Assembly: GCA_013152945.1 (NCBI GenBank)
Contig: JAADFL010000130.1
Location: forward strand, 1-19,521
Origin: Deltaproteobacteria bacterium
GTDB taxonomy: Bacteria > Myxococcota_A > JAADFL01
DNA: 19,521 nt
Reading direction: 5' to 3'
The translations under genes were made by a program, and so were the position numbers. The notes beneath the pieces were generated by a model, which searched no databases, had not been told where the DNA came from, and saw only the letters and a program-made list of their open reading frames with translations. Positions within the stretch are counted from its first letter, which is position 1. The number at the start of each line of letters is the position of its first letter. This document shows, in pieces, positions 985 through 19,521 of the stretch.

Positions 985-1017
985 GCTCTTACACTATGCT
1001 GTCTCGATGGTGGATGG

Positions 1018-3641: not shown

Positions 3642-3651
3642 GCCGGGGTGC

Positions 3652-3671: not shown

Positions 3672-3683
3672 CTTGTGTCGAAG

Positions 3684-3930: not shown

Positions 3931-3961
3931 ACGATTCCATGGGCAACGCCCCTGGAATCGT
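3931..3961 (-). terminator. strong hairpin directly after the pepT stop codon
   Basis: The arms are ACGATTCCATGGGC (3931-3944) and GCCCCTGGAATCGT (3948-3961), complementary at 13 of 14 positions around the loop AAC. On the minus strand it starts immediately after the pepT TGA (3962-3964). No T-run follows, so it may act as an RNA 3' end stabiliser or a factor-dependent terminator. The symmetry means it could act on transcripts from both directions between these convergent genes. Confidence 0.6.
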
Positions 3962-5230
3962 TCAAATCCTGGCGCCCCATAACTGGACCAGGTTCACTAT
4001 GACACATACCGCCTTGCCCATTGCCCTCGTGCTTATCCATTCCTTGGGACCGTGGAAGTTTACACCGCCGGTGAACAGGTTTGGTGTCGGTAGGCCGCGC
4101 TGTGTCAATTGCGAGCCGTCCGTGCCGCCCCTAATAGGTCTGTGATTGGGCTCGATGCCTGCTTTTCTTATTGCTTCCATGGCTTTTTCCAGGATTTCCG
4201 GTTGCTTTGTAAGCCAACGCGCCATGTTCCGGTATTGCTCGGTGATTTTTAATTCCACCTTCAGCCTTGGTTCTTCGGAACGTATCCGGTCTATGATCTG
4301 CTCGAGCCGTTTCCCCCGTTCGGCAAGTTTCCGGTCGTCGAAATCCCGCAGGATAAGATTTACGGTAACCTTGGCCGCATCACCCGTCATGTCCGTGGGA
4401 TGGAAGAACCCCTCCCTTCCTTCTGTCTGCTGGGGTGTTTCCTCCTGGGGCAACCTGGTCAGGAAAACTCCGGCCCAGTCCATGGCGTTGACCATCTTTC
4501 CCTTGGCAGTGCCTGGGTGCACGGAAACCCCTTCGAAGACAACGGTTCCCTTGTCTGCACTGAAAGTTTCGGAGTTGACCTCGCCGATGAAATCTCCGTC
4601 TATGGTAAAGGCGGCTTTTGCACCGAATTTTTCGATATCGAACTTGTCGGCGCCTCGTCCTATCTCCTCGTCCGGGGTGAAACCTATGCGCAATGTAGGC
4701 CTTGGAAGCTCGGGATGGGCCTTGAAAAGCTCCAGGGCAGCCATGATTTCCGCAATTCCGGCCTTGTCGTCCGAACCCAGCAGGGTGGTTCCGTCGGAAG
4801 TGATGATGGTGTCTTTGATGCACTGTTTTAATTCAGGGGTGTCTTTTGGATCGATGACCACAGAGTCCTCGAGTTCGATCACGCCTCCGTCATAGTTTTC
4901 GTGTAAAATCGGTTTTACATTGGTGCCGGAAAATGCAGGAGCAGTATCCATGTGTGCCAGCAGCCCGATAACCGGGGAACCTTCCACGTTTCCCTTGAAT
5001 GTTGCGAACAGGTACCCGTTTTCATCGACCTGCGCATCTTCGAGCCCGAGTTCCTTCAATTCCCGGGCCAGGATTTCGGCAAGGTCCAGTTGCTTGGCGG
5101 TTGACGGGCAGGATTCACTCTCCTCGTCGGACTGCGTGTCCACCTTCACGTACCTCAGGAATCTTTCGACAACTGTAGTTTTGTCCAGCACTTCGCGTTC
5201 ATCTGTAAACCAGTGTGTTTGCTCTCCCAA
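3962..5230 (-). CDS. pepT: peptidase T (tripeptide aminopeptidase, M20 family)
   Basis: A 422-residue protein, close to the usual length of about 410. PepT is a cytoplasmic di-zinc exopeptidase that removes the N-terminal residue of tripeptides. Diagnostic motifs are GLLAHMDTAP (His93 and Asp95), LLGSDDKAG (about 151-158), FTPDEEIGRG with Glu188-Glu189, FTIDGD (Asp211), and the C-terminal RGGTDGSQLTQRGLPTPNLF and FHGPKEW (His393). These give the expected metal ligands and catalytic Glu. The central part (about 216-330) would be the lid/dimerisation domain and includes the SVHPGTAKGKM segment typical of PepT. The start is TTG 5230, supported by a GGAGG five bases upstream. A strong hairpin follows the stop. 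It is the 3' neighbour of an unknown minus-strand gene 61 bases upstream. Confidence 0.96.
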   Translation of the reverse strand: MGEQTHWFTDEREVLDKTTVVERFLRYVKVDTQSDEESESCPSTAKQLDLAEILARELKELGLEDAQVDENGYLFATFKGNVEGSPVIGLLAHMDTAPAFSGTNVKPILHENYDGGVIELEDSVVIDPKDTPELKQCIKDTIITSDGTTLLGSDDKAGIAEIMAALELFKAHPELPRPTLRIGFTPDEEIGRGADKFDIEKFGAKAAFTIDGDFIGEVNSETFSADKGTVVFEGVSVHPGTAKGKMVNAMDWAGVFLTRLPQEETPQQTEGREGFFHPTDMTGDAAKVTVNLILRDFDDRKLAERGKRLEQIIDRIRSEEPRLKVELKITEQYRNMARWLTKQPEILEKAMEAIRKAGIEPNHRPIRGGTDGSQLTQRGLPTPNLFTGGVNFHGPKEWISTRAMGKAVCVIVNLVQLWGARI

Positions 5231-5235
5231 TTTGT

Positions 5236-5240
5236 CCTCC
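5236..5240 (-). promoter_or_regulatory. Shine-Dalgarno that fixes the pepT TTG start
   Basis: GGAGG on the minus strand is separated by five bases (ACAAA) from TTG at 5230-5228. No ATG or GTG in the right position has comparable support, so the rare TTG start is preferred. Confidence 0.75.
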
Positions 5241-5291
5241 GTTCCGGGTTGTTATTACCGTTTAAATGATGCCGTATAAATGATGACAGTT

Positions 5292-5927
5292 TCATCCGCT
5301 ATTAAGCTGAAAAACGTGTTCGGTCGCCGAACTGCCGCCCGGCCAAAGGTATACGTCTATTTTGTATGGCTGATCGTTTTCCCCGGGTTGTTCCATTAGG
5401 AAAAGGAGATAATTGTCGGCCTTGCCCGAGTAGTTGGTGACCAGCCGCCTGAAGGACGACACGCTCTCGAAAGAACCGTCCTTGCCGGATTCGGTGGACT
5501 TGGGCGTTGAAGCGAAGAACAGCTTGAGCGGTGCCCTTACGTGGACGAGTTTCAGAAAATCCTCGACCTGGTTCTCCCATTTCTTGCCCAACTCGCAGTG
5601 TGCCGCGACAAGGAGATTCGTTGGATATCCCGTGTTGTCCTTGTCTGTACCGATGACTGCGTCGACCAGAAAGTGTTTCGGTCTGTTGGCTGTCCAGCAC
5701 TTGAGGGAGCGGCTCTCCGAGTAGTCGTGGAGCAGGCTCAGAAGGACTACCTTCCATCCCCTGGGTGATCTCGACCAAAAGGGAAAGCGTTGAACGAGGA
5801 CCTCTCCAAGAAAGCGTGCCAGCTCTCTGGGCTCGACACCCTTGAAATTTGAATTCATGGCCACGACCCCCAAATATTTTTCATGCACCAGACCTACCAG
5901 GGCAGGCATCCGGATGTCAACATGCAT
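5292..5927 (-). CDS. conserved-looking protein of unknown function
   Basis: The frame is open from 5999 (TTG) to TGA at 5292-5294. The first ATG is at 5927, giving about 211 residues; another in-frame ATG is at 5906. None has a clear Shine-Dalgarno, so the start is uncertain. There is no signal peptide or membrane segment, so it is probably cytoplasmic. The central part reads LVDAVIGTDKDNTGYPTNLL, then VAAHCELGKKWENQVEDFLK and LVHVRAPLKLFFAST. The order of acidic residue, beta-strand with Glu, then a helix with Lys before a hydrophobic strand vaguely recalls PD-(D/E)xK nuclease-fold proteins, but this is a weak guess. It lies divergently next to the envelope protein gene at 6064 and upstream of pepT. 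Confidence 0.65.
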   Translation of the reverse strand: MHVDIRMPALVGLVHEKYLGVVAMNSNFKGVEPRELARFLGEVLVQRFPFWSRSPRGWKVVLLSLLHDYSESRSLKCWTANRPKHFLVDAVIGTDKDNTGYPTNLLVAAHCELGKKWENQVEDFLKLVHVRAPLKLFFASTPKSTESGKDGSFESVSSFRRLVTNYSGKADNYLLFLMEQPGENDQPYKIDVYLWPGGSSATEHVFQLNSG

Positions 5928-6063
5928 GTCCTGTTCGGGTTGTTTTTCTAGTGACTTTCGTCCTGAAACTGATATTCTGCGAACATTATGCAGCACCAAG
6001 CTGCAGTTATAAGCTGTGCATGATATATGGTAGTCAAGGTATAAACGGAACGGGGTTAGCAGT

Positions 6064-7296
6064 ATGGTAAGGTTTAACTCTTATTCAAATATCAAGGTAT
6101 TAGCTTTATCCCTTGTGTTATCTGTATTTCTTTTCAACACCGGCGTTTTTGCAGGGAAAAAGGAGCGGGAGAAAATCGCTGTAATGGAACTTGCCGCAAA
6201 GAGCGGTATCAAGCAGGCCCAACTGGATGTGCTGGGTGACATGTTGGCGACCGAGCTAAGAAATATCGGCAAATACGAAGTAATTACCAAAGACGATATC
6301 AAGGCCATGTTGGGCCTTGAAAAGGCAAAGGAGTTTCTTGGCTGTGACGATGCCTCTTGCATGGCGGATGTAGGCGGCGCACTGGGCGTGGACAAGGTCA
6401 TTTCAGGCAATGTTGCCAAGTTCGGCACAGTTTACGCCGTAAATCTCAAGCTGATAGATATACACGAAACAAGGGTGAAAAACAGTGTGTTCCAAAAGGT
6501 CCCCGGCGGCGAACAGGCATTGCTCGACTGTTTCAGCAACCTTGTTCACAAGCTCATGGGAACCAGGCATATCTCGGGTGCAGCCTTTAAGGAAACAGTA
6601 ACTCCAGGGAATGTTGCAATCGGGTCCACGTCCGATCTTGCGGACCTGGGTTTCACGGACGAAATGTTCAGTAGAATTCAACAGGCCGGCCTGGCAATGA
6701 ACTCGAGGGCTGTCGCAGTGGTCAGGAGATTGCTCGGCCGGGGGTTTTCGCCAGAGGAAATAACCGGATTAATCGTTGACCGGAATATCCTTTCGTACAA
6801 TCCGAGGGAAGCCGAAACATTTGCAATATACTACCTCGTGGGCATGAATCCAAGGCGGTTCCAGGGATTCATCAAGAAGGGGCTTCATTTGACCGCTTAT
6901 TACAACAAGCAGCAGGAGAGTACAGGCCTGGAGGTTACCAAGTGGGTGACATTCGGCACTGGTCTGCTCATGGGGCTTTTCGGCGGGATGTTTTATGGCT
7001 TGTATGCCGCTTCGAGCAGCGACTCGGGGCTTTATGCAGGCCATGTTTCCATGGGTATCGGAGTTGCATTGCTCCTTGTGTCCATAACAACCATGATTAT
7101 CGATGGTATTAATATCGGTTACTTGCCTGATGGCTTCCTGGAAAATGCCAAGAAGGACGAAATAGTCAAAAAGCTGGGAAAGGCTGCAAGGAGGTTGTCA
7201 TGGGGATTTGCGCCGGGTACTGGCAAAATGGCCGGTGTTATGGATAATGGGAATGGGTCGAGGTTTTTCGGGTTGAGCTTGAGTTTCAGCTTCTGA
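6064..7296 (+). CDS. TolB/CsgG-like envelope protein with two C-terminal hydrophobic segments
   Basis: Protein of 410 residues. A signal peptide covers 1-30 (core ALSLVLSVFLFNTG, cleavage after Ala30). Residues 36-168 match the pattern of the TolB N-terminal/CsgG-type domain: KIAVMELAAKSGI, then LATELRNIGKYEVITKDDI, MLGLEKAKEFLGCDDASC (Cys94 and Cys99), ADVGGALGVDKVISGNVAKF and LKLIDIHE. This exact motif series recurs in exported proteins of deltaproteobacteria, where it is usually joined to PEGA or other domains. Here a region of about 130 residues of unknown type follows, then two hydrophobic segments (about 294-315 and 326-347), and the protein ends in FFGLSLSFSF, an amphipathic beta-like stretch with terminal Phe. 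A TATAAA at 6040-6045 is a possible -10 element. The next gene starts 36 bases after the stop, so it may be co-transcribed with the biosynthetic operon. The role is unknown. Confidence 0.8.
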   Translation: MVRFNSYSNIKVLALSLVLSVFLFNTGVFAGKKEREKIAVMELAAKSGIKQAQLDVLGDMLATELRNIGKYEVITKDDIKAMLGLEKAKEFLGCDDASCMADVGGALGVDKVISGNVAKFGTVYAVNLKLIDIHETRVKNSVFQKVPGGEQALLDCFSNLVHKLMGTRHISGAAFKETVTPGNVAIGSTSDLADLGFTDEMFSRIQQAGLAMNSRAVAVVRRLLGRGFSPEEITGLIVDRNILSYNPREAETFAIYYLVGMNPRRFQGFIKKGLHLTAYYNKQQESTGLEVTKWVTFGTGLLMGLFGGMFYGLYAASSSDSGLYAGHVSMGIGVALLLVSITTMIIDGINIGYLPDGFLENAKKDEIVKKLGKAARRLSWGFAPGTGKMAGVMDNGNGSRFFGLSLSFSF

Positions 7297-7332
7297 CACT
7301 TGATTTTTGTCGGAATTTTCCCGGATTAAGCA

Positions 7333-8649
7333 ATGAAGGTAGTGTTTGTATATCCACGCTTTAAAAAGTATTTGAGCGACTTTACAAGAGAAGAACAGGA
7401 GATTCTCGTGCCTATCGTCGGCGGTTTCACCACGCCCCCGTCTTTGGGTATTCCACTATTGGCCGCGATGACGAACAGAGAACATCAAGTCGAGGTGATT
7501 GATGACAACCGTGGAGACAAAGTCGATTTCGATATGGATGCCGATCTTGTTGCGATAAATTGTTTCACTCCACAGGCCACAAGGGCCATGGAATTGGCCG
7601 ATGGCTTTGGTAAGGCGGGGAAAAAGGTGATCATGGGCGGCATTTTTCCGTCTTTCATGCCGGACCAGGTGCTCGAGCACGCGGACTCGGTGAACATCGG
7701 CGAGGGTGAGCCCACCTGGGAGACGATCCTGGAAGATGCAGGAAGGGGAGAGTTGAAAAGGGTGTACAAGGGCGGCAACAGGTTCGACCTCGCAAAGCTT
7801 CCCGTACCCAGAAGGGACGTCTTGTATGGCAAGGCGGGTTACGATTGGCATGCCGCATTGGTGCAAACGGCCCGGGGGTGTAATTTCAATTGCGCCATGT
7901 GTGTTCTTCCTGCTCATTTTGGTTACAGGGTGAGAACCAGGCCTGTGCATGCAATCATGGAAGAGATCGAGAAAACACCTTATGATCAAATCTATCTTGC
8001 TGATGACACGATTTTCATCGAAAAACCCGGGATCGAGGCATGGGCCAGGGATTTACTGGAAAAACTGGCGCACCTGGACAAGAGGCTGTTCGTTTCCGGC
8101 ACATTGGCCTTGAACACCAAGCAGGATTTTTTCAAACTTCTGGCAAGGGCGGGGACAAAGACATTCTATTGCACCCTGAACGTGGACCCGTTTTCCATGC
8201 GGGCTTTGCAGGGAAATGACAGGAGGGCCGAGCTCAAAGTCAAGGACCTGGTTTCCATGGTCAATGATTTGGGAATGGAATTTTTTGCATCATTCGGCAT
8301 GGGCAGGGACTGGGACGATGAAGGTGTTGCCGACCGGATATTGGAGTTGTGCGGGAAGACGGGAATCAAGACTGCGGAGTTCTTTCTCTTCACTCCTTTT
8401 CCGGGATCACCCCATTATTCCAGGATGGAATCCCAGGGCAGGCTTTTGCACAAGGTCTGGGAGAAGTACAATGGCGCTAACGTAGTGTTCAAGCCAATGA
8501 AGATGAAGCCCGGACGCCTGCACGAATTGTATAGCTATGTCTGGCGACAGATGTACAAAGGTGCCATGGAGGACCAGGTATTAAAGAAACTGGGCAAGCA
8601 GACCGGCGCCAGCCCACATCCGGATGCAGGCAAAAGGAGCAGGAGCTAG
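7333..8649 (+). CDS. radical SAM protein with N-terminal cobalamin-binding-like domain
   Basis: Protein of 438 residues. Residues 1-140 form a Rossmann-like B12-binding domain as in BchE-type enzymes: VVFVYPRF, TTPPSLGIPLLAAM, VEVIDDN, DADLVAINCFTPQA, KVIMGGIFPSFMP and NIGEGEPTW. No DxHxxG motif is present, which is usual for this group. The radical SAM domain starts at VQTARGCNFNCAMC, with the CxxxCxxC cluster ligands Cys183, Cys187 and Cys190. The GGE-equivalent and later strands follow (YLADDTIF at 221-228, FFASFGMGRDW, FFLFTPFPGSP). Enzymes of this class methylate, cyclise or rearrange unactivated carbons using S-adenosylmethionine. The short C-terminal tail is basic and Ser-rich. The ATG at 7333 has only a weak GGA upstream. 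The next gene begins 3 bases after the stop. Its position at the head of a ketosynthase operon suggests the substrate is an acyl chain made by these enzymes; the actual reaction is unknown. Confidence 0.93.
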   Translation: MKVVFVYPRFKKYLSDFTREEQEILVPIVGGFTTPPSLGIPLLAAMTNREHQVEVIDDNRGDKVDFDMDADLVAINCFTPQATRAMELADGFGKAGKKVIMGGIFPSFMPDQVLEHADSVNIGEGEPTWETILEDAGRGELKRVYKGGNRFDLAKLPVPRRDVLYGKAGYDWHAALVQTARGCNFNCAMCVLPAHFGYRVRTRPVHAIMEEIEKTPYDQIYLADDTIFIEKPGIEAWARDLLEKLAHLDKRLFVSGTLALNTKQDFFKLLARAGTKTFYCTLNVDPFSMRALQGNDRRAELKVKDLVSMVNDLGMEFFASFGMGRDWDDEGVADRILELCGKTGIKTAEFFLFTPFPGSPHYSRMESQGRLLHKVWEKYNGANVVFKPMKMKPGRLHELYSYVWRQMYKGAMEDQVLKKLGKQTGASPHPDAGKRSRS

Positions 8650-8652
8650 AAA

Positions 8653-11055
8653 GTGGCCAAGGCACAGAGGGCTGTTGTGACCGGCATGGGCGTTGTAAGT
8701 CCCATAGGCTCGGGACCCGAAGAATTCACGGAATCCCTGCTTAACGGTATTTCCGGGATACGCGATGTCACCCAGTTCGATACCATCGGCCTTCCAAACC
8801 GCCGGGCGGCTCAGGTAGCGGATTCCATTGTCGAGAGGAACCTCGATAGGGATGATATCCTGCGGTACGGGGACAGGTACTTGCAGCTTGCCCTTGTAGC
8901 AGCCGGGCAAGCGCTTGAATCGGCCGGTTTGGGAGCAAACCTGGGATGGAGCACGTCGGCTGCAGTTTGCGTTGGTACATGCAACGGAGGTTTGAGGACA
9001 GCGGAAAAGCTGTACAGGATGCTGCATCACAGGGAAGAGGGAGACCTGGACGAGAGGATGAACCTGTTGTTCAGGTATTTCGCATTGCCAAGGGCATTGG
9101 CAACGAAATTCAGGATAGGCGGTCCCAACATGGTTGTAACCACTGCCTGTTCTTCGTCCACAGGCGCACTGGGCCTGGCTCTGGACCTGGTCTTGTCCGG
9201 GAGAGCCGAGCTGGTTCTTTCAGGGGGAAGTGACGCACTTTGTTACACGACTTTTGCAGGTTTTTCCGCGCTGGGCGCAATGGCTGAAAAGGCATGCACG
9301 CCTTTTTCCAATGAACCCGGCCTTACCTTGGGAGAAGGAGCCGCGTTTTGGGTTGTCGAGAGCCTGGAGCTTGCCCGCGCCAGGGGAGTTAAAATACGCG
9401 GTGAGCTGCTGGGTTACGGCTTGACTGCCGACGCATATCACCCCACTGCTCCCGAACCCCGGGGCATGATGGCTTGCAAGGCGATGAGAAAGGCGATTTC
9501 CTGCATAGGCCCGGAAAATGACAACGAGCCTGGTTATATAAACGCCCATGGCACGGGCACGGATGCCAATGATATGTCTGAAGCAAGGGCCATAAAGAGA
9601 TTGCTCGGGCCAAGAGCAAAGAATGTGCCGGTAAGCTCGACCAAGTCCATGATAGGGCATTGCCTTGGAGCCGGAGGGGCATTGGAGGCAACTGCATCCC
9701 TCTTGTGCATGGAACAAGGCAAGGTGCCGCCCACAATTGGTTTCGACGAGCCGAGGCCAGGCCTTTTCGGCCTTGATTATGTCGGCGGGAACAGGGCCAG
9801 AAAACACGATTTTACGAATTTTATTTCCAATAGTTTCGCCTTCGGCGGAAACAACGCAGTGCTTTTTGCCGGGGCATATGAGAAAGAAAGACAGGTAAGT
9901 ACAGGCGCAAAGGGCAGGGTGGTAATAACCGGAGCCGGTGTCACTACTCCTTTTGGCCGTGGATTGGAAATATTAGCGAATGGAATTGCGCGCGAACATG
10001 GGGCTGTAAGAATAATCGACCGCTTCGATACATCCGAATCAAGGTACAAGGCTGCGGGATTGGTTCCACGCTTGGATGAACGAAGACTGGCCAAGAGGGT
10101 GAATATGAAAGGATTTCACCCGATGAGCAAATACCTAGCCCTGTCTTGCCTCGAGGCAATGCAAGATGCCGGTATCAGGCCGTCCCCGAGTGCGTGTGCC
10201 GACATCGGGCTCGTGTTGGGCTCCCTGGTGGGACCGAGCGAGGAACGCCTGATGAACAGCGTATGGAAACAAACGGCATCCTCTGTTGATATCGGGGGAT
10301 TCGCATCCATTGTCGCAAACTCGGTCAGTGGAGAGGTGTCGAGGGCCCTTTACCTGACCGGGTACAATACTGTTCTCTCCACAGGCCACCACTCTGGGTT
10401 GTCGGCGCTCATAGTAGCGGCGCAGGCCATTATCCAGGGGAGGGCCGGAACATTGCTGGCAGGTGGAGGAGACGAATTATTTGCGAGGTACATGGCAAAT
10501 TACGACAAGGTCGGGTACCTGCCCGAACCCGGCTTCGATCCTGGCGAATATGGGAAGATCCCCTTGCCCGGAAAGAAGCGCATCCTGGCTGAAGGCGCTG
10601 CTGCCTTCATGCTCGAGCAAGAGGCGGATGCTTTGAAAAGGCATGTCCGGCCGATTGCCGTAATTGCAGGCTTCGGCCATACTTTTGAACAAGGTGACTT
10701 TTTAAGCGGAACAACGCAATATCAGGGCATTATTACAGCCATATCCAAGGCCTTGGATATGGCCGGGCTCAAAGCAAGAGATATCGACTTGATATTGACG
10801 GCAAGGCAGTACAATGAAACGGATGAACGGGAAAAGGAGGCGATACGGCAGGTCTTCGGCCATAGTTTTCCTGTTTTGGACATAGTGCGGAAGACGGGTT
10901 ACTCGGAGAGTGTGTCGGTCCTTTGGAGTCTTTCCGCTTGGTTCGAAAAGGCGGAGCGTTTCAATGAACCCGGCAGGGATGAAAAGAGAGCCCTTGTACT
11001 CGGCACTTCCTATTATGGAAACAACTTGGTACTCGTGGTCGAGAGATTCGGATGA
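8653..11055 (+). CDS. fused ketosynthase-chain length factor didomain protein (pair 1)
   Basis: Protein of 800 residues made of two thiolase-fold ketosynthase domains. Domain 1 (about 5-411) is FabF-like with an intact triad: Cys166 in TTACSSSTG, His299 in NAHGTGT, Lys331 and His336 in STKSMIGHCLGAGG. It should condense malonyl-ACP with an acyl chain. Domain 2 (about 421-800, starting GRVVITGAGVTTPFG) keeps the fold signature but reads VLSTGHHSGLS at the Cys site, so Thr577 replaces Cys. It has ARQYNET in place of HGTGT and lacks the second His (KTGYSES). It is therefore expected to be non-catalytic, like the chain-length factor of type II polyketide and PUFA synthases. GTG 8653 is supported by AGGAG at 8641-8645, seven bases upstream, and lies 3 bases after the radical SAM stop. 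The KS half is most like that of the next gene. Confidence 0.92.
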   Translation: MAKAQRAVVTGMGVVSPIGSGPEEFTESLLNGISGIRDVTQFDTIGLPNRRAAQVADSIVERNLDRDDILRYGDRYLQLALVAAGQALESAGLGANLGWSTSAAVCVGTCNGGLRTAEKLYRMLHHREEGDLDERMNLLFRYFALPRALATKFRIGGPNMVVTTACSSSTGALGLALDLVLSGRAELVLSGGSDALCYTTFAGFSALGAMAEKACTPFSNEPGLTLGEGAAFWVVESLELARARGVKIRGELLGYGLTADAYHPTAPEPRGMMACKAMRKAISCIGPENDNEPGYINAHGTGTDANDMSEARAIKRLLGPRAKNVPVSSTKSMIGHCLGAGGALEATASLLCMEQGKVPPTIGFDEPRPGLFGLDYVGGNRARKHDFTNFISNSFAFGGNNAVLFAGAYEKERQVSTGAKGRVVITGAGVTTPFGRGLEILANGIAREHGAVRIIDRFDTSESRYKAAGLVPRLDERRLAKRVNMKGFHPMSKYLALSCLEAMQDAGIRPSPSACADIGLVLGSLVGPSEERLMNSVWKQTASSVDIGGFASIVANSVSGEVSRALYLTGYNTVLSTGHHSGLSALIVAAQAIIQGRAGTLLAGGGDELFARYMANYDKVGYLPEPGFDPGEYGKIPLPGKKRILAEGAAAFMLEQEADALKRHVRPIAVIAGFGHTFEQGDFLSGTTQYQGIITAISKALDMAGLKARDIDLILTARQYNETDEREKEAIRQVFGHSFPVLDIVRKTGYSESVSVLWSLSAWFEKAERFNEPGRDEKRALVLGTSYYGNNLVLVVERFG

Positions 11056-11070
11056 CAGGATAGCCGGAGC

Positions 11071-13410
11071 ATGGATAGTTCTGTTGAAAACAACATGGTG
11101 GTGATTACCGGAATCGGAGTAATTTCACCCATAGGCTCGAACAAGGGTGAGATGCTCGATTCCCTGATCCATGGACGCTCTGCAATTGCTTCAAGTCCAA
11201 GGTTCGAGGGAAAGGGCTTTAGGACTTCGTTTGTGGCAGAGGTCCCGGATCTCGAAGACTTATCGATCGAGGAATCCAAAGAGCCGTATACTGATCGCTG
11301 TTCCTTGTTATCCATAATCGCGGCAAAGCAGGCTCTTGTGGACTCTGGCCTGGAGCCGTCAGGTGAAGATCTGTTGCCTGGGGCCGGCCTGGTGCTCGGG
11401 ACCTGTAACGGCGGCATGCTCAGCATAGAGAAGCACTACCGGATGAGACTGGGCATGGAAAAGGGCGGGTTCGGCGAGGACCTTTTCCTACAGAAAAGGT
11501 ATTTCGGCCCTGCACTCTGTACTGCCGGAAGACTGGGTATCAGCGGACCATGCTCCACGGTCGTAACTGCATGCTCGGCAAGTCTGAATGCAATCGGTGT
11601 TGCCATGGACTGGTTGAAAAACAAGGATGCGGACATCGTGCTTGCCGGAGGAGCGGACGCATTGAGCGGGACCACACTTGCAGGCTTTGATGGTCTTAAG
11701 ACGACGTGCCCGGCGCAGTGCGCGCCGTTTTCTTTTCCTCTCGGCCTGAATCTCGGCGAAGGAGCAGCGTACTGGGTCCTTGAGAACCAGGACCATGCGA
11801 CAAGGAGAGGCGCCAAGATCTATGGATGCCTGCTGGGATATGGGCTCAGTACCGACGCATATCATCCTACCTCACCGGATCCAAGAGGGCGTGGACTGTA
11901 CCTTGCTCTCAAGAGGGCTGTAACGGATTCGGGCATCGACCTTAAAGAAATAGAATATGTCAATGCACACGGCACGGGCACCGAGGCAAATGACAAGGCG
12001 GAAAGCAATACGCTCCGGACTTTCTTTAACGGCAAGGTGCCTCCCGTGAGTTCATTGAAATCCTATTTCGGTCATACCCTTGGAGCCGCCGGTATCCTGG
12101 AGGCGACCGGCGCCCTGCTTTGCTTGTCCAAGGGCTTTGTGCCGGCCACGTTGAATTTCAACAGGCCCAGGCCCGGATGCAATCTCGATTATGTTCCCAA
12201 CGAGCCGAGGCCCGCCAGGGCCAAGTTATTCTTGTCCGAAAAGTTGGCTTTTGGCGGCCACAATTGTGCCATGTTGTTGTCTGCTGCAAAGGTCGAGCCG
12301 AAAAGGCGCACCAGGCGGACGAAACAGGACAGGGTCTTCATAACGGGAACGGGTTTGGTTTCAGGGTTGGGATTCGGCTCGGCTGACCATGTGGCTGCAT
12401 ATAGGAACGGCTCGACTTGTATCGGCGAGGTTTCGAGATATGATGTGGATGGATGCGCCTTGAAGGTGGCGGGTTTGGCGGATAATCGCATCGATAGTGG
12501 AATTATCCGGAGACTCGGGTTGAAATCCGCTGATTTAAGCTCAAAGTTTGCCGGTATGGCGGTGTTGAATGCCTTGGATGATGCCGGCCTGAAGCCGGCG
12601 AGAAGACTCGGCAGGGATTTGGGGTTGGTCCTGGGCCTGACAATCGGGCCGACAAGGGGGGAGTCGGAGTACCTGAAAGGGATATACAGCGGCAAGGGCC
12701 CGAGCCTCCTCCATTTTCCGTTCATTGTCCCGAACTCGATAGCAGGGAATATATCCAGGGCATTGTCGATAACCGGAACGGGTACGACCCTTTGTACAGG
12801 TCCCGGGAGTGGCCTGATGGGCGTGATCAATGCCGTTACGAGTATACACATGGGCCGGGCCGATATCGTGCTTGCAGGCGGAGTGGACGAGGTCAGCGAG
12901 GTGGTTCACCGGGATTTCGATGAACTCGGGTTGTTGGGCAGTAGTCAGAATCCAAGGCCTTTGGGGGAAGGCGCGGCCATGGTTGTGCTTGAAAGCGAAT
13001 CCTCTGTAAGGACCGGGGGAAGCGGCAGGATCAAGGCCGAGGTGTTGAAGGCAAGGTCTTTTCTTTCCCTGCCTGTTATGAGGGGAGAATCGGATATTGA
13101 TAGCGCTGCAAAGGATTTTCTGCAGAATTTTTTCGATGATGACGATCCTGGTGAAGTCGGCACAATATGTGTCGGCTCTTTTACAGGAGATATGGAGAAC
13201 GATCCCCGGTTTTTAAAAACCTTGTTCGGGCCTGAAGTGGATGTAGTAAGATTCGATCGGTTGACCGGTTCAATGCTCTCTGCCGGTCCTCTTGTTTCCC
13301 TTGGGTGTGCGCTTCATTCTCATCATGGGCGAATATTATGTCTGTCTTGTTCGAGGTACGGTGAATTGAATGCCGTGTTGCTGGAGGTGCCGGGGAATGG
13401 CTGGCAATAG
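11071..13410 (+). CDS. fused ketosynthase-chain length factor didomain protein (pair 2)
   Basis: Protein of 779 residues, paralogous to the preceding gene. KS domain (about 8-405): Cys168 in VVTACSASLN, His300 in NAHGTGT, Lys330 and His335 in SLKSYFGHTLGAAG, so catalytically intact. A basic linker (KRRTRRTK, 411-418) joins the second domain (about 421-779). That domain has TTLCTGPGSGLMG at the Cys site (Thr576 in the aligned position, with a Cys one residue earlier). It has no HGTGT and no second His (LTGSMLSAGP), so it is chain-length-factor-like. Shared phrases with pair 1 (GTCNGG, EKxYRM, LGYGL, TDAYHPT or TADAYHPT, FGGxN) point to duplication of a didomain gene. The start ATG 11071 is 15 bases after the previous stop. 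The 3' end overlaps the ACP start by 14 bases. Confidence 0.92.
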   Translation: MDSSVENNMVVITGIGVISPIGSNKGEMLDSLIHGRSAIASSPRFEGKGFRTSFVAEVPDLEDLSIEESKEPYTDRCSLLSIIAAKQALVDSGLEPSGEDLLPGAGLVLGTCNGGMLSIEKHYRMRLGMEKGGFGEDLFLQKRYFGPALCTAGRLGISGPCSTVVTACSASLNAIGVAMDWLKNKDADIVLAGGADALSGTTLAGFDGLKTTCPAQCAPFSFPLGLNLGEGAAYWVLENQDHATRRGAKIYGCLLGYGLSTDAYHPTSPDPRGRGLYLALKRAVTDSGIDLKEIEYVNAHGTGTEANDKAESNTLRTFFNGKVPPVSSLKSYFGHTLGAAGILEATGALLCLSKGFVPATLNFNRPRPGCNLDYVPNEPRPARAKLFLSEKLAFGGHNCAMLLSAAKVEPKRRTRRTKQDRVFITGTGLVSGLGFGSADHVAAYRNGSTCIGEVSRYDVDGCALKVAGLADNRIDSGIIRRLGLKSADLSSKFAGMAVLNALDDAGLKPARRLGRDLGLVLGLTIGPTRGESEYLKGIYSGKGPSLLHFPFIVPNSIAGNISRALSITGTGTTLCTGPGSGLMGVINAVTSIHMGRADIVLAGGVDEVSEVVHRDFDELGLLGSSQNPRPLGEGAAMVVLESESSVRTGGSGRIKAEVLKARSFLSLPVMRGESDIDSAAKDFLQNFFDDDDPGEVGTICVGSFTGDMENDPRFLKTLFGPEVDVVRFDRLTGSMLSAGPLVSLGCALHSHHGRILCLSCSRYGELNAVLLEVPGNGWQ

Positions 13411-13669
13411 TCTGCTGGAAAGAATTAAGCGTCTTGTCGTGGATGCCCTGGAATTGGGTGTCCAACCTGATGGGCTTCCCGATGACCTCGACCTGACTAC
13501 TGGCGGGACAGTGGAAATCGATTCAATAGAAGTCGTGGCATTAGTGCTCGCATTGGAACATGAATTCAGGATCAAGCTCCAGGATGAAGATCTCGACTTG
13601 TCGAATTTTTCGACTTTGTCCGCCATGGCAGCCCTTGTTCAAAAGAAACTTGGCGAAAAGGACCGATGA
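13397..13669 (+). CDS. acyl carrier protein
   Basis: Protein of 90 residues. The phosphopantetheine site is Ser in EIDSIEVVAL, in the usual place before helix II; the common DSL is DSI here. VVALVLALEHEFRIKLQDED matches the helix II region that partners recognise, and the protein is acidic as expected. ACPs carry the growing acyl chain as a thioester and need a phosphopantetheinyl transferase, not seen here. ATG 13397 was chosen because GGAGG at 13383-13387 lies nine bases upstream; the frame is also open from 13370, but that would add unrelated residues. It overlaps the previous gene by 14 bases and the next by 4 (ATGA). It is the only ACP in the operon, so all three KS/CLF pairs presumably share it. 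Confidence 0.93.
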   Translation: MAGNSLLERIKRLVVDALELGVQPDGLPDDLDLTTGGTVEIDSIEVVALVLALEHEFRIKLQDEDLDLSNFSTLSAMAALVQKKLGEKDR

Positions 13670-14925
13670 CAACGAGTGAAAATAACGGTAACCGGGTTGT
13701 CGTGACCGGGCTTGGTGTTGTCTGTTCTTTGGGAAGAGGGGCGGAATATGTCTTTGACCGTTTGTACAACGGATTTTCAGGCATCCGGGTTCAGGATAGG
13801 AGAATCAGGGGGACAATGGAATCATGGGCCTTGGCCCTGTTGCCCCGCCGCTTGAACATGGACGGCTTTTTTTCAGGATGGCGCCATTCGCCCGGTGCGT
13901 TGGCGGACAGATTGCTTCTCATGGGATTACATGACGCACTGGAGCATGCAGGACTTTGGCCTCTGCTACATGAGTCGGCCGGGAGAACGGGCTTGGTTAC
14001 CGTCAGCGGTTCCGGCAAAGTCATTGCTTTAGAATCCGGGTTGAAAGATATTTCCGGCCGGGCCGGAGACAGGGGCGGCATGGACTCGTCATTTGGTGAA
14101 TTGTTTGAATCCGTTGCGGATTGGGGGGCCTGGCGTTACGGAATATCCGGTCCCAGGCTGAACCTGGTGTCAGCCTGTTCTTCGGGTATCGTGGCATTGG
14201 CGAGGGCTTACGAAATGATAAGGCACGGCCGTGCGGACATCGTGGCAGCAGGAGCATCCGATGTGGTTTCAGATTTGTGTTTCCAGGGTTTCAGGTCTTT
14301 GAGGGCAATGGACCCAAAGCCTTGCAAGCCGTTTGACAGAGATAGGGATGGAATGAATCTCGGCGATGGTTGCGGCGTGCTGGTACTGGAAGAATATGGA
14401 CATGCGTTGAAAAGAGGCGCCGGCTTGCTTGCAGAGATATCAGGATATGGAATCACCCAGGATGCCAGGCATATTGCCTCTCCGGATCCCACCGGCCGGG
14501 ACTGGGCCGAACCAATACGGCAGGCGATCGACATGGCCAAAATAAGGCCTGGAGAACTTTCCTACATCAATGCCCATGGCACGGGAACAAGGCTTAACGA
14601 CAAGGCAGAGACCCTGGCTATAAAGCATGCTCTTGGCAAAGATGCTTACGATGTGCCTGTAAGTTCTTTCAAGGCGGCCCTGGGGCATTGCCAGTTCGCG
14701 GCAGGAGCAATTGAAGCAGCCATGACCGTAATGGCGATAAAAGAGAACAGGGTGCCTCCCATATTGGGATTGAATTCACCTGATCCCGATTGTGATCTTG
14801 ATTATGTTAAAGGCACCGGGATAGAGAGACACCTGGAAACATCCCTATCTCTTTCTTTTGGTTTCGGCGGCACCAGCACGGCAATGCTTTTCAGTTCAGT
14901 ACGAGCCGGGAGGCCCGGCTCATGA
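13666..14925 (+). CDS. beta-ketoacyl-ACP synthase, FabF-like (KS of pair 3)
   Basis: Protein of 419 residues, the length of a single FabF-type enzyme. Catalytic residues are Cys171 in VSACSSGIVA, His304 in NAHGTGT, Lys336 and His341 in SSFKAALGHCQFAAG; GFGGTSTAML is the C-terminal glycine-rich loop. It catalyses decarboxylative Claisen condensation on ACP-bound chains in the cytoplasm. The region between about 40 and 160 differs most from the KS halves of the two fusions, including a Gly/Arg-rich segment (SGRAGDRGG), so it may have a different substrate pocket. ATG 13666 overlaps the ACP stop (ATGA), with AAGGA three bases upstream. It overlaps the next gene by 4 bases. Confidence 0.95.
   Translation: MTTSENNGNRVVVTGLGVVCSLGRGAEYVFDRLYNGFSGIRVQDRRIRGTMESWALALLPRRLNMDGFFSGWRHSPGALADRLLLMGLHDALEHAGLWPLLHESAGRTGLVTVSGSGKVIALESGLKDISGRAGDRGGMDSSFGELFESVADWGAWRYGISGPRLNLVSACSSGIVALARAYEMIRHGRADIVAAGASDVVSDLCFQGFRSLRAMDPKPCKPFDRDRDGMNLGDGCGVLVLEEYGHALKRGAGLLAEISGYGITQDARHIASPDPTGRDWAEPIRQAIDMAKIRPGELSYINAHGTGTRLNDKAETLAIKHALGKDAYDVPVSSFKAALGHCQFAAGAIEAAMTVMAIKENRVPPILGLNSPDPDCDLDYVKGTGIERHLETSLSLSFGFGGTSTAMLFSSVRAGRPGS
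14903..14921 (+). promoter_or_regulatory. hairpin covering the Shine-Dalgarno of the CLF-like gene
   Basis: GAGCCGGG (14903-14910) and CCCGGCTC (14914-14921) are perfect inverted copies around the loop AGG. The likely ribosome-binding sequence GGGAGG (14908-14913) is split between stem and loop. The hairpin ends directly before ATG 14922, inside the last codons of the upstream KS. Ribosomes finishing the KS would melt it, which would couple the two products. Confidence 0.55.
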
Positions 14926-15947
14926 TTGCGCGTGTCCTGGGGTTGGGGATCTTATGCCCGGAGGGGCGGGGGCCTTCAGTGGTCATGGATGATTCCTTGA
15001 CTCTATCGGCCGGTAGGGGCGCCAGAGTGGTTCCGGCCCCGGATTTGGATCCGATCGGCATGCGAAGGATGGACAGGCTGGCCCGGATGGTCTATCTAGC
15101 AGGCCGGGATGCATGCATGGACTCGGGCCTGGATGAGGATCTTTTACAGGAAACAGGGGTGATTCTCGGAACCGTTACAGGAGGCCTGGAATCATCACAC
15201 AGGTTTCTCAAAAGAGCTTTGGACAAAGAGGCTCCGCCTCCGTCCCCTGTCGCTTTCACAAATTCGGTCAGGAATGCTGCTTCCGGCCACCTGGCCATCG
15301 CCCTGGGGGCAAAGGGGCCTTGTTTCACCGTGACAATCGGGGAATCATCGGGCCTTGGCGCCTTGTACGAAGCTTGCATGTTGCTGGACGAGAAAAACAC
15401 GCTTTACATGATTGCAGGTGGAGCAGAGGAATTGCCGTCCTGGCTGGAATCTGAAAGCGCTGTCGAATCGGGATATCTGCCGTGGTCCGAAGGCGCCTTT
15501 TTGTTGGCCCTTGGAGCGGAAAGGATTTCAGGCGGCAATCACCTCGCCGATATTCTGGATATTTGCATGGTGAACATTCCATCACTTCCCTTTGAAGAGC
15601 CGGGAGATGCCACGGCGTGTCGTACGTCTATGCGTAGCTGCCTCGAAAGGCAGGGAATAAATTTTTCAGATGTGGGATTGATTCTTGCATCTTCTCCTGC
15701 ATTGGAAACAAGGGCGCGACTTGCCGAAGACGAGGCTATCCGGGATCTTTTCGACATGGAAAGGATAAGAGTGGAAAGGCCCATTTTGAACGGTCGATCG
15801 TGGATGGGGCATGGAGCAGGGCGTGCAGTCGCAGCTTGTATTGCAGTAAATAATGGGATTTCAGGGAAAAAGGGCGGAGGTGGGCTCGTATTGGTGAACA
15901 GCTTTTCTCCAGGCGGTACCTATATCAGTATGTTGTTCGGAAAATAA
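14922..15947 (+). CDS. degenerate ketosynthase, chain-length-factor-like (partner of pair 3)
   Basis: Protein of 341 residues, about 80 shorter than an active KS and close to the size of the second domains of the two fusions. It has the thiolase-fold start (RVLGLGILCPEGRG) and the FTNSVRNAASGHLAIALGAKGP segment typical of chain-length factors and aryl-polyene-type KS-like proteins. The Cys site reads TVTIGESSGLGA, so the nucleophile is missing (Gly140 at that position). HGTGT is replaced by LASSPALET. Unlike the fused CLF domains, it keeps a GRSWMGHGAG segment in which His297 aligns with the second catalytic His. It is probably a heterodimer partner of the upstream KS. ATG 14922 overlaps the KS stop by 4 bases, and GGGAGG lies eight bases upstream within a hairpin. 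No strong terminator was seen in the 37 bases before the convergent sdhB. Confidence 0.88.
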   Translation: MIARVLGLGILCPEGRGPSVVMDDSLTLSAGRGARVVPAPDLDPIGMRRMDRLARMVYLAGRDACMDSGLDEDLLQETGVILGTVTGGLESSHRFLKRALDKEAPPPSPVAFTNSVRNAASGHLAIALGAKGPCFTVTIGESSGLGALYEACMLLDEKNTLYMIAGGAEELPSWLESESAVESGYLPWSEGAFLLALGAERISGGNHLADILDICMVNIPSLPFEEPGDATACRTSMRSCLERQGINFSDVGLILASSPALETRARLAEDEAIRDLFDMERIRVERPILNGRSWMGHGAGRAVAACIAVNNGISGKKGGGGLVLVNSFSPGGTYISMLFGK

Positions 15948-15984
15948 ACCGATGTTGTGAAAAAAACACAGCGCACGGAAAATT

Positions 15985-16731
15985 CTACTTGGATTTAAGT
16001 GCGGCCCTCAGGAAATCCCTGTGCATCCTGGCGATGTTGATCATATCGATTTCCTTGGGGCATGCCTTTGAGCATTCACCTTCATTTGTGCAATTGCCGA
16101 AACCCTCACGGTCCATGGCTTCCACCATGTTTAGGGCCCTGCGCTCACGCTCGGGTTGTCCCTGGGGTAAGAGGCTCAAGTGTGAAATCTTTGCACCAAT
16201 GAAGAGCATGGCCGATGCATTCTTGCAGGCGGCAACGCAGGCCCCGCACCCGATGCATGCCGCTGCATCGAATGCCTCGTCCGCCTTGGCCTTCTCGACC
16301 AGTACGGTGGCGGCATCCGGGGCCGAGCCTGTCCTTACAGAGATGTAACCCCCTGCCTGTTGAATCCGGTCGAATGCACTTCGGTCGACCATGATGTCCC
16401 TGATAATGGGAAATGCTTTTGCACGCCATGGTTCCACGTAGATATGATCGCCATCTTTGAAGTTACGCATGTGCAACTGGCACAAGGTTGTTCCCTTCTG
16501 ACCCCCATGGGCCCTGCCGTTTACCATGGCTCCGCACGTTCCACAGATGCCTTCCCTGCAATCGCTGTCGAAAACGATTGGATCCTTTTGTTTGAGTATG
16601 AGATCCTCATTCACCTGATCCAGCATTTCCAGGAAGCTCTGGTCAGGAGAAATATCCTTGGCCTCGATGATTTCCATGTGCCCCTTCTCATCGGGGCCTT
16701 TTTGCCGCCAAACGTGAAGAGTCAAGTTCAT
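15985..16731 (-). CDS. sdhB: succinate dehydrogenase / fumarate reductase iron-sulfur subunit
   Basis: Protein of 248 residues, the usual length. The [2Fe-2S] ligands are Cys58, Cys63, Cys66 and Cys84 in [10 protein letters not shown] and TTLC. The [4Fe-4S] and [3Fe-4S] ligands are in [11 protein letters not shown] (159, 162, 165, 169) and [12 protein letters not shown] (214, 220, 224). The subunit passes electrons between the flavin of SdhA and the quinone site of SdhC at the inner membrane. ATG 16731 overlaps the sdhA stop by 4 bases and has GAGGT (minus strand, 16739-16743) seven bases upstream. It is the last gene of the sdhCAB operon and converges on the ketosynthase operon. Confidence 0.96.
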
Positions 16732-18641
16732 TTGTACGACCTCTGCGTTGGTTTCACGTACTCGAAAGTGAGCTCTTCCTTGTGACGCACAGGCTCGTTG
16801 TCAGCACCCGTGTATTCCCATACCGCCACATGGGAGAAATTCTCGTCATCCCTTTTTGCTTCATTGTCCTCTGTCTGGCTTTCTTCCCTGAAATGGCCCC
16901 CGCAGGATTCTCGCCGTTCCAGGGCATCTCTTACCATGAGTTCTCCGAACTCGAGAAAGTCTGCTACCCGCCACGCTTTTTCGAGTTCCTGGTTCAAGTC
17001 GTTGCTGTTACCGGGAATGAGCAGGTTCTCCCAGAATTCCTGCCTGACTTGTGGAATTTCCTGCAATGCCTTTTTCAGTCCCGCTTCGTTCCTGGACATA
17101 CCGCAGTTTTCCCAGAGTAGCGCACCCAGATCCTTGTGAAACCTGTCTGCTATCTTGTTGCCTTTTATCGAGAATAATTTTTCCAGTCTTTCCTGGACAC
17201 GGCTCTGGGCCTGTTCAAAGGCCTCGTTCGATTCTTGAATTGGTGGAAGTTCTGTATTGGCGATGTAAGCGCCGATGGTATAGGGTATTATGAAATATCC
17301 GTCAGCCAGCCCCTGCATCAGTGCGCTTGCTCCGAGGCGGTTGGCGCCGTGGTCCGAGAAGTTCGTTTCTCCCAGGGCGAAAAGGCCGGGAATAGTGCTC
17401 ATCAATTCGTAATCGACCCACAGTCCTCCCATGGTGTAGTGGAGTGCAGGGTAGATCCTCATGGGGACTTGGTACGGATCTTCGGCGGTAATTTTTTCGT
17501 ACATCTGGAACAAGTTGCCGTACTTGGCCCTGATGGTTTCTATACCGTCCTTTTTTATTGCATCCCGAAAGTCAAGGTACACCGCCAGGCCGGTATCGCC
17601 CACGCCCAAACCATTGTCACATACAGCTTTGGCGGCCCTGGATGCGACATCTCTCGGCACAAGGTTGCCGAAGGCAGGATAACGCTCTTCGAGGTAATAA
17701 TAACGGTCCGATTCCGGGATGTCTTTGGGTTTTCTTTTGTCCCCCTTGTTCTTAGGCACCCAAATCCTTCCGTCGTTCCTGAGGCTTTCACTCATGAGGG
17801 TGAGCTTGGATTGCTTTTCTCCATGCACAGGGATACACGTGGGGTGTATCTGCACAAAACTTGGATTCGCAAAACCCGCTCCTCTTTTATAACACGCCCA
17901 TGCAGCGGATACATTACAATTCATGGCATTTGTGGAAAGGAAGAATGCCCTGGAATAGCCGCCAGTAGCAAGGACGACTGCATCGGCCGGTATCCTCTTC
18001 AGGTCACCATTCAACAGGTTTCTGGCCAGCACTCCGCGGGCCTTGCCGTCGATTACGATAAGGTCCAGCATCTCGTGGCGTGTGAGCAACTCGATGTTGC
18101 CCCGGTGAACCTCCTTCATCAGTGCGCCGTATGCTCCAAGCAGGAGCTGTTGTCCTGTCTGGCCCCTTGCATAGAAAGTCCTTGATACCTGTGCGCCTCC
18201 GAATGACCGCAAGGCGAATAGGCCGCCGTATTCGCGTGCGAACGGCACTCCCTGTGCAACGCACTGGTCGATTATATTGTTCGAAATCTGGGCAAGGCGG
18301 TACACGTTGGCTTCCCTTGCCCTGTAATCACCGCCCTTGACGGTATCGTAGAACAGCCGCCATATGCTGTCGCTGTCGTTGGTATAATTTTTGGCAGCGT
18401 TTATTCCTCCTTGCGCGGCAATGCTGTGGGCCCTTCGCGGGCTGTCTTGTATACACATGTTGATGACCTTGTATCCCAGCTCCGACAAGGTGGCGGCGGC
18501 GGATGCGCCGGCAAGGCCTGTTCCTACGACCAAGATAGTGTGTTTTTTCTTGTTGGCAGGGCTTACCAGCTTCATTTCGAATTTTTTACGATCCCATTTC
18601 TCTTGTATGGGTCCCGAGGGGACCTTGGAATCCAGTTTCAT
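16728..18641 (-). CDS. sdhA: succinate dehydrogenase / fumarate reductase flavoprotein subunit
   Basis: Protein of 637 residues. The FAD-binding motif is [12 protein letters not shown] (38-49). His72 in AHSIAAQGG is the covalent FAD attachment site. His266 in IHPTCIP, Arg330 in [10 protein letters not shown] and His401 in [12 protein letters not shown] are the expected active-site residues for succinate/fumarate interconversion. The start ATG 18641 was chosen although the frame is open to 18845, because the extra residues overlap sdhC and carry no flavoprotein sequence. ATG 18641 also overlaps the sdhC stop by 4 bases, with GGGGGTG upstream. The long [18 protein letters not shown] region resembles B-type enzymes of Bacteroidetes, epsilon- and deltaproteobacteria. 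The direction in vivo (oxidation or reduction) cannot be told from sequence. Confidence 0.96.
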
Positions 18642-19342
18642 CCCGCACCCCCGGAAGAAGTAAGTATCAAAACAGGAACCAGCGCAAAGCCCAGGGGAAT
18701 GAGAACCGCAAACAAGAGCCCAAAGGCCTTGATGTACCGCGTATACCTGGGATGGTTGATTCCAAGGCTTTGAAAGGCGCTTTGAAATCCGTGGCTCAAG
18801 TGTACTCCCAACCCAAGCAAGGCTGTCAGGTAGATGGCAACCCACAGAATTTGGCTGAATCTGCTACGTACCAAATCGTACAGGCCTTGTACGCCATCGT
18901 GTGTCGTGAACCTGAAGTTGAGCAGGTGGATGACGAGAAAAGCGAAGATGAAGAAAAGTCCCGTGTATATCATTGTGCCGGAGCCCAAGGTCCTTCCGCC
19001 CTCGTTTTTCTGCAACACGTACCTGGCCGGACCTCTTGCCGCCCTGTTTTGCAGCCACAAGGTGATACCCAGCAAGATATGGGTGCCGAAGAGCAAAAGC
19101 AGAAAGATCTCACCAGTATAGAATATCAGGGGCACTGCTTCATAGTGATGAGCCACCCATTTGAAAAATTCACCCGTGGACTGAGTCGCAGGATAAAGGG
19201 TGAGACTTCCACTGTCTTTGAGCAGCAAGGTGATGTTCCCAAGGAGGTGAACCGAGAGGAACAGGCACAATGTCAGGCCGGTAAGGGCCATTATTGCTTT
19301 CTTGGCTACTGATTTCCTAATTAGACCGCTCGAGCCATTCAT
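18638..19342 (-). CDS. sdhC: succinate dehydrogenase cytochrome b subunit (B-type, five helices)
   Basis: Protein of 234 residues from ATG 19342. Five hydrophobic helices lie at about 15-40, 70-97, 126-146, 165-186 and 205-227. Histidines within or near helices (His32, His88, His139, His181) are candidate ligands of two hemes, as in the B. subtilis and Wolinella di-heme cytochromes b. It anchors SdhAB and reacts with the quinone. No sdhD is present, consistent with B-type enzymes that have a single large anchor. An ATG 21 bases further upstream (19363) is in frame but lacks a ribosome-binding site. ATG 19342 has GGGGG eight bases upstream. It is the first gene of sdhCAB. Confidence 0.93.
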
Positions 19343-19521
19343 TTCATCTACCCCCGGCGGCATTTGCGAAACAATCCATAAAACTTTGTTTGTTGATATG
19401 CAAGTAATAAAATCATCTACCCTGAAATATTGAATAACTTGTTATTTTATTTATCCGGTAACATGGTTGTACACGGCCCGGGATCCATACCCGGGGCAGT
19501 AGTGACGCCAACCGGAAATTC
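19343..19521 (-). promoter_or_regulatory. upstream region of sdhCAB
   Basis: This non-coding stretch, AT-rich from about 19381 to 19455, should contain the sdhCAB promoter, but I could not fix -35 and -10 boxes. Two symmetric elements are visible. AATAAC-TT-GTTATT at 19433-19446 is a candidate operator. CCCGGG at 19477-19482 and 19490-19495, separated by seven bases, could form a hairpin belonging to a neighbouring transcript. No gene was seen in it. Confidence 0.4.

Follow-up and report, generated by a model that had tools for sequence, protein, structure and literature searches.

A radical SAM gene and two fused ketosynthase-chain length factor genes form a conserved cassette in a Deltaproteobacteria genome

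Introduction

Contig JAADFL010000130.1 of a Deltaproteobacteria bacterium (assembly GCA_013152945.1), analyzed here over positions 1-19,521 of its forward strand (hereafter, the window) and belonging to a 4.84 Mb metagenome-assembled genome (MAG) that is 94% complete, carries on its plus strand (7333-15947) an operon in which a gene for a B12-binding-domain/radical S-adenosylmethionine (SAM) protein is followed by genes for three pairs of ketosynthase (KS) and chain length factor (CLF) and for one acyl carrier protein (ACP). This arrangement raises the questions of why several KS/CLF pairs are kept together beside a radical SAM protein and what kind of pathway they would serve. Herein, we report that the conserved unit consists of the radical SAM gene and the first two pairs, KS1-CLF1 and KS2-CLF2, each fused into one polypeptide, and not of all six KS-fold domains. 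With a probability of roughly 0.65, we take this cassette to be the part that elongates the chain in a highly reducing type II polyketide or lipid pathway within the aryl-polyene/ladderane-type sphere, where the ACP-bound chain is the substrate of the radical SAM protein.

It has long been suspected that radical SAM enzymes build exotic lipids such as ladderanes on carrier-bound chains, but no firm connection with chain elongation has been established (PMC2649909; PMC9821293). In the cassette described here, such a connection is written into the genes: ten loci, distributed over several phyla, encode the radical SAM protein and KS-CLF as a single polypeptide. In a survey of the open-access literature, which did not cover subscription papers, no account of fused, stand-alone KS-CLF pairs accompanied by a radical SAM protein was found; the reports on fused KS-CLF proteins concerned polyunsaturated fatty acid (PUFA) synthases, and those on radical SAM proteins together with ketosynthases and the host phyla amounted to one metagenome survey. 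The cassette is real, conserved and apparently undescribed, and its novelty lies in the arrangement and not in the kind of system.

Organization of the operon

The operon encodes, in this order, the radical SAM protein, KS1-CLF1, KS2-CLF2, ACP, KS3 and CLF3, and its genes either overlap or are separated by gaps of 3-15 bp. The first gene of the cassette (7333..8649) encodes the 438-aa radical SAM protein P0002, assigned by Pfam and NCBIfam. It is followed by the genes for P0003 (KS1-CLF1; 8653..11055, GTG start, 800 aa) and P0004 (KS2-CLF2; 11071..13410, 779 aa), both of which were found by Pfam, NCBIfam, phylogenetic and alignment analyses to contain two KS-fold domains each, that is, a KS and a CLF in one polypeptide. 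Alignment with E. coli FabF (C163/H303/K335/H340) revealed an intact C-H-K-H set in KS1 (8662..9870) and KS2 (11089..12282), the position of the catalytic Cys being occupied by His in CLF1 (9913..11052; STGHHSG) and by Pro in CLF2 (12316..13407; CTGPGSG). The 90-aa ACP P0005 (13397..13669), which likely starts at the ATG at 13397 and overlaps the end of the KS2-CLF2 gene, scored 24.3 bits against PP-binding PF00550 (cut-off 20.8) and has its Ser43 (codon 13523-13525) within an EIDSIE motif. The remaining pair is encoded by stand-alone genes for KS3 (P0006, 13666..14925, 419 aa), with C-H-K-H intact, and CLF3 (P0007, 14922..15947, 341 aa), with Glu in place of Cys. A first-pass annotation, made from the sequence of the window, had counted six KS-fold domains, three with the catalytic triad and three without the Cys, and the alignment proved these counts right. 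Its order of KS-CLF, KS-CLF, (ACP), KS, CLF with a single ACP was likewise accurate as to the domains, but this wording hides the fact that the first two pairs are fused polypeptides.

The matches of the KS and CLF domains (65-450 bits) are far beyond chance, and other phyla show the same gene order. With KSs bearing the Cys-His-His triad, CLFs devoid of the Cys and an ACP carrying the phosphopantetheine Ser in the same operon, the set has the composition of a minimal type II polyketide synthase (PKS). Among the top structural matches of KS1 was the ishigamide KS (Z 45.4). A structure model of the whole 800-aa KS1-CLF1, built from 8 sequences, reached a pLDDT of 74, too weak to argue for a cis heterodimer.

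Conservation and origin of the cassette

When 377 genomes of the phylum were searched with CLF1, nine turned out to possess full-length relatives (124-215 bits, the next match scoring 84 bits), and all nine belong to two families, f9 and f41. Genes in GC-rich relatives were called by codon-position-trained prediction combined with tblastn. The f41 locus L050 has a radical SAM gene (52% identical), KS1-CLF1 and KS2-CLF2 in a row. In the f9 loci (L026, L027, L032, L044 and L045), a KS and a radical SAM gene precede KS1-CLF1, after which come genes of the aryl-polyene type for a family 2 glycosyltransferase (GT2), an acyltransferase, a thioesterase (TE), LolA, MMPL and DUF3261 proteins, although not all of these were called in each locus; L032 and L045 also contain a hotdog dehydratase. 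In L049, KS1-CLF1 and KS2-CLF2 are accompanied by the same kind of export genes. The contigs of L048 and L058 match in content, as do those of L050 and L059.

Scanning the genome collection with an alignment of the radical SAM protein brought up relatives, 46-57% identical, in Myxococcota/Deltaproteobacteria, Fibrobacterota (Fibrobacter, Chitinispirillaceae), Verrucomicrobiota, Kiritimatiellae, Lentisphaerae and Opitutales; the scan relied on two short peptide patterns, and its 28 loci undercount the family. Four Myxococcota loci (L054, L055, L057 and L059) have the radical SAM, KS1-CLF1 and KS2-CLF2 genes separate and in the order of the window. In ten others (L060-L068 and L070), two of which are cut by a contig end, radical SAM, KS1 and CLF1 make up one polypeptide of ~1250 aa. 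KS2-CLF2 and ACP come after this fusion in L060, L061, L065 and L070, and in the most complete fusion loci a GcvT-like protein, a thioesterase, a ketoreductase (KR) and a malonyltransferase (MCAT) are next in line. The locus of Puniceicoccaceae Marseille-Q1082 (L067) assembles within ~15 kb the fusion, KR, TE, GcvT, ACP, GT2, MMPL and acyltransferase genes together with a second ACP, another KS-CLF and a LolA-like gene. Counting the window, KS1 or KS1-CLF1 adjoins or is fused to the radical SAM protein in 17 of 18 testable loci, L053 being the exception, and KS2-CLF2 is next in 9 of 12 testable ones. The neighborhood comparison thus confirmed that a multi-pair KS/CLF system with a radical SAM protein is genuine and conserved elsewhere. 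The notion that all six genes are conserved together did not hold: the set comprises the radical SAM gene and the two fused pairs, and KS3/CLF3 are absent from it.

The origin of the pairs was addressed by a maximum-likelihood tree computed from 96 KS and CLF domains. KS1 and KS2 of the cassette formed one clade (100/99) and CLF1 and CLF2 another (100/100), both separate from E. coli FabF, from the KS-CLFs encoded on Priestia and Streptomyces plasmids, and from aryl-polyene-type KSs. The KS1 and CLF1 subclades matched each other (100/99 and 99/97, respectively). On this tree, KS1-CLF1 and KS2-CLF2 are duplicates of one fused gene, and the duplication predates the spread of the cassette over the phyla. 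KS3 and CLF3 of the window fell outside both clades, CLF3 joining the aryl-polyene-like CLFs of the relatives on a long branch (99/93), and in the other loci no third pair comes after the two fused ones. Since KS3/CLF3 lie outside the cassette clades, the conserved unit is limited to two pairs and the third is regarded as a local addition. As KS1-CLF1 and KS2-CLF2 are old duplicates that have been maintained separately, it is plausible that the pairs act at different stages, and fused KS-CLFs kept side by side in this manner offer a natural test case for the division of labor between elongation stages.

A scan of viral contigs with KS2-CLF2 gave no relative. Unannotated "Listeria/Enterococcus phage" records (OR846916 and similar) were seen to contain apparent bacterial FabF genes, which are probably host DNA contamination.

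The radical SAM protein P0002

P0002 matched both B12-binding PF02310 (40.5 bits, cut-off 32.1) and Radical_SAM PF04055 (33.1 bits, cut-off 29.5), and its CxxxCxxC motif is formed by C183, C187 and C190, all three of which are invariant in 17 relatives. An N-terminal B12-binding domain combined with CxxxCxxC is the pattern of class B cobalamin-dependent radical SAM methyltransferases; the "B12-type" label of P0002, which derives from the domain, should be read as putative. In an AlphaFold model (pLDDT 87.6, 17 sequences), the best fold match was AprD4 (Z 31.5, rmsd 2.7, 377 residues aligned, 17% identity), followed by MgmA (26.5), CysS (25.3), OxsB (23.4) and TsrM (22.7). AprD4 is a radical SAM 1,2-diol dehydratase that is not known to require cobalamin. 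P0002 is accordingly a whole B12-domain/radical SAM protein whose predicted fold would be compatible with methyl transfer, dehydration or C-C bond formation alike.

Homologues of P0002 at ~36-40% identity occur in two further settings, both with ACP-dependent pathways, namely AMP-ligase - epimerase - ACP - acyl-CoA dehydrogenase - radical SAM in other Myxococcota, and radical SAM - KR - dehydratase (DH) - KS - CLF - ACP in Fibrobacterota. Because ACP-dependent pathways are common to these settings and KS1-CLF1 is fused to the protein in the ten loci above, an ACP-bound chain would be its most plausible substrate. Homologues of the same rank in L115-L119 have no ACP-pathway neighbors, and the wider family is not solely tied to such pathways.

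The fold comparison bears on one step of the pathway, in that P0002, instead of being a cobalamin methyltransferase, could be an AprD4-like radical dehydratase that takes the place of a hotdog-fold enzyme and removes a hydroxyl from the ACP-bound chain. AprD4 leads MgmA by a clear margin (Z 31.5 versus 26.5), and the L061 cluster has KR and MCAT with no adjacent FabZ-type gene. However, a shared fold does not show function, particularly at 17% identity, and the AprD4 family model NF033070 gave no match to P0002 at E<=1e-3 in the NCBIfam search. Moreover, a FabZ-type DH adjoins the radical SAM homologue in L071, L086 and L088, and the L065 contig carries a FabZ-like gene ~1 kb past MCAT. We consider this dehydratase role possible but somewhat unlikely; as it concerns a single step, it can hold together with an elongation core of the highly reducing type II kind.

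Several observations on the wider family were made in passing. The first of the above settings appears as a conserved operon in L121, L127 and L129 (AMP-ligase, NAD-dependent epimerase, ACP where called, acyl-CoA dehydrogenase and the P0002 homologue), and L072 has a similar set (AMP-ligase, ACP, radical SAM and an acyl-CoA dehydrogenase-like gene). The L072 contig (DYIT01000192.1), labelled Kuenenia stuttgartiensis, has a GC content of 62%, which is unlike Kuenenia, and is probably mis-binned. The own genome of the window encodes more than 20 B12-domain/radical SAM proteins, several of them in tandem arrays of 2-4 (contigs C78, C74 and C111).

Candidate pathway genes outside the operon and the proposed pathway

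The first-pass annotation had noted an absence of tailoring domains apart from the radical SAM protein, which is true within the run; KR, dehydratase, acyl/glycosyltransferase, LolA and MMPL genes were found on other contigs of the MAG and beside the sister KS1-CLF1 genes. Contig C108 carries a fourth KS/CLF pair (CLF PF13723), LolA, MMPL and DUF3261 genes, an ApeI-type dehydratase (44.4 bits, cut-off 28.5) and an ApeP-like protein that scored below its cut-off (23.1 versus 27). On C209, a FabG-type ketoreductase gene directly precedes one for a GT2-acyltransferase fusion, and on C31 an ACP gene adjoins ACPS.

On the basis of these gene contents, an unusual lipid or polyene is the probable product of this system in some uncultured bacteria. 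In the proposed pathway, the fused proteins would act as cis KS-CLF heterodimers, adding malonyl units to a starter carried by the ACP, with KS1-CLF1 working early and KS2-CLF2 on the longer or modified chain. The KR (C209) and the ApeI-type DH (C108) would act in trans to give a polyene or polyunsaturated chain, and the radical SAM protein would modify the ACP-bound chain at the KS1-CLF1 stage by C-methylation, radical dehydration/deoxygenation or C-C bond formation. Finally, the GT2-acyltransferase (C209) could transfer the product to a lipid or sugar carrier, and LolA/MMPL (C108) could move it to the outer membrane. A bolder version, which we put forward tentatively, is that the joining of radical SAM to KS-CLF reflects radical chemistry, be it methylation, dehydration or C-C bond formation, on a growing ACP-bound polyketide between two successive KS-CLF stages, in a system without a described member. 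If this is true, Myxococcota, Fibrobacterota and Verrucomicrobiota-type bacteria would have in common a membrane lipid or polyene that belongs to a new class.

Several points weigh against the proposed pathway. Whether C108, C209 and C31 belong with the window hinges on MAG binning, with which their GC content of 0.50-0.53 agrees. No AMP-ligase or ammonia lyase that could supply an aryl starter was recognized in the window, C108, C209 or C31, the rest of the genome not having been searched for them, and the GcvT-like gene of the other loci had no match in the own genome. As for the cassette, L053 (= G153) has the radical SAM, KS1-CLF1 and KS2-CLF2 genes on three different contigs, and in Opitutales/Puniceicoccaceae KS2-CLF2 does not adjoin the fusion. 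The radical SAM protein beside KS1-CLF1 in f9 is also a different one, matching TIGR04072 and sharing 21-24% identity with P0002.

Comparison with known systems

The first-pass suggestion of an undescribed pathway stands insofar as the literature survey is concerned, but the system shares genes with aryl-polyene and ladderane-type clusters and is not wholly unrelated to them. Like aryl polyene (APE) clusters, it combines KS/CLF and an extra KS with ACPs, KR, hotdog dehydratases, thioesterase, GT2/acyltransferase, LolA and MMPL, genes that are dispersed in the own genome or together in the sister loci. An ordinary APE pathway with redundant ketosynthases, producing a normal aryl polyene with the radical SAM protein being peripheral, would account for these accessory genes in the own and sister genomes, the more so as characterized APE clusters already contain ApeR, a KS additional to ApeO-ApeC (PMC8358021). 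Nevertheless, the radical SAM protein is fused to KS1-CLF1 in ten loci and occurs even where no APE export genes adjoin, the KS1/KS2 clade is apart from aryl-polyene-type KSs, and aryl starter genes were not seen near the cassette. Unlike APE clusters, moreover, the cassette has two fused, duplicated KS-CLFs in a clade of their own, often with radical SAM fused to them, and the genes of the own genome do not lie in one cluster, APE-type genes (KS/CLF, ApeI, LolA and MMPL) being on C108 and the operon of the window on another contig. We therefore judge an ordinary APE pathway improbable.

The cassette also resembles the ladderane/polyunsaturated hydrocarbon candidates of anammox bacteria and Desulfotalea (Kuste2802-2805), in which a B12-domain radical SAM gene lies near a KS and a Cys-less KS paralogue; in the anammox locus, the B12 radical SAM Kuste2803 and the Cys-less KS paralogue Kuste2805 were singled out as ladderane candidates (PMC2649909). 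By this analogy, the radical SAM protein might cyclize a polyunsaturated ACP-bound chain into a ladderane-like or other ring-containing lipid. In line with such a role, the sister loci carry TIGR04072 ("lipid biosynthesis/ladder") itself, both f9 proteins tested exceeding its cut-off of 360 bits (L044, 382; L026, 370). In addition, Kuste2805 has Phe/Asn/Lys/Glu in place of Cys/His/Lys/His, and its Phe163/Lys328/Glu333 pattern is shared by the CLFs that belong to the Fibrobacterota clusters with a single pair (radical SAM-KR-DH-KS-CLF-ACP). P0002, in contrast, scored 49.3 bits against TIGR04072, no protein of the own genome passed the cut-off (best 109 bits), and the window contains no phytoene-desaturase-like gene. 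The tandem fused KS-CLFs and the APE-type export genes further set the cassette apart from the ladderane candidates, and the ladderane-building enzymes themselves are unidentified (PMC9821293). Ring formation by P0002 hence seems quite improbable.

Most improbable is a replacement of housekeeping fatty-acid synthesis by the cassette, with KS1/KS2 serving as FabF: the own genome, at 94% completeness, lacks a stand-alone FabD, and its stand-alone KSs do not exceed 117 bits, so that its fab operon is either missing from the assembly or replaced, but most of ten cassette-bearing relatives keep a FabF of ~200 bits along with the cassette, the gap would be accounted for if a single contig carrying the fab operon were missing, and neither a radical SAM protein nor CLF partners are part of type II fatty-acid synthesis.

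Among other systems, ishigamide Iga11-Iga12, a highly reducing type II PKS making polyenes, is likewise a minimal system of KS/CLF and ACP, and the cassette differs from it in the fusion and duplication of KS and CLF, the radical SAM partner and the host phyla. In the cispentacin AmcF system, a KS heterodimer with a Cys-less partner acts on an ACP (PMC10698177). The AmcF and AmcB models matched KS1-3 and the ACP, respectively, all under the curated cut-offs (KS1 259.6, KS2 248.2 and KS3 223.3 bits versus 325; ACP 35.9 versus 80), and assignment to this system was rejected; tandem fused pairs and a radical SAM protein further distinguish the cassette. A PUFA synthase (Pfa) assignment was also rejected, as P0003 and P0004 hold KS and CLF domains only, with no megasynthase acyltransferase (AT), ACP repeats or DH.

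Parts of what looks like one PUFA-synthase-like cluster were noticed elsewhere in the own genome. C70 (L040) encodes a separate type I PKS of 1700 aa, KS-AT-(second KS-like domain), which is truncated where the contig stops, and C217 (L109) encodes a 927-aa KR-dehydratase protein and an Sfp-type phosphopantetheinyl transferase (PPTase).

A cluster on a Priestia megaterium plasmid (NZ_CP120620, L081) resembles the cassette loci in having a fused KS-CLF with ACP, MCAT, FabG, TE and a GcvT-like gene, the same accessory set as in the Fibrobacterota/Verrucomicrobiota loci. It differs in possessing one KS-CLF, FabZ and no radical SAM gene, and its KS and CLF lie outside the cassette clades. The cluster is compact (3797-11427 of L081), with genes for a short-chain dehydrogenase/reductase, TE, PPTase, MCAT, FabG, ACP, FabZ, the GcvT-like protein and the fused KS-CLF.

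Flanking genes

Downstream, the operon is bounded by convergent succinate dehydrogenase/fumarate reductase genes, of which the nearest, SdhB, ends at 15985. The upstream neighbor, ~36 bp from the operon, encodes a protein with only a sub-threshold match to DUF3280. At the beginning of the window, a secreted Cys-rich protein with an Asp-Thr repeat (1-984) is followed by a matrixin-like metalloprotease (1018-2739; HELGHVFGLDH) with Cys-rich repeats and a C-terminal anchor. DTDTDT lipoproteins like those of the window also adjoin the cassette in L050.

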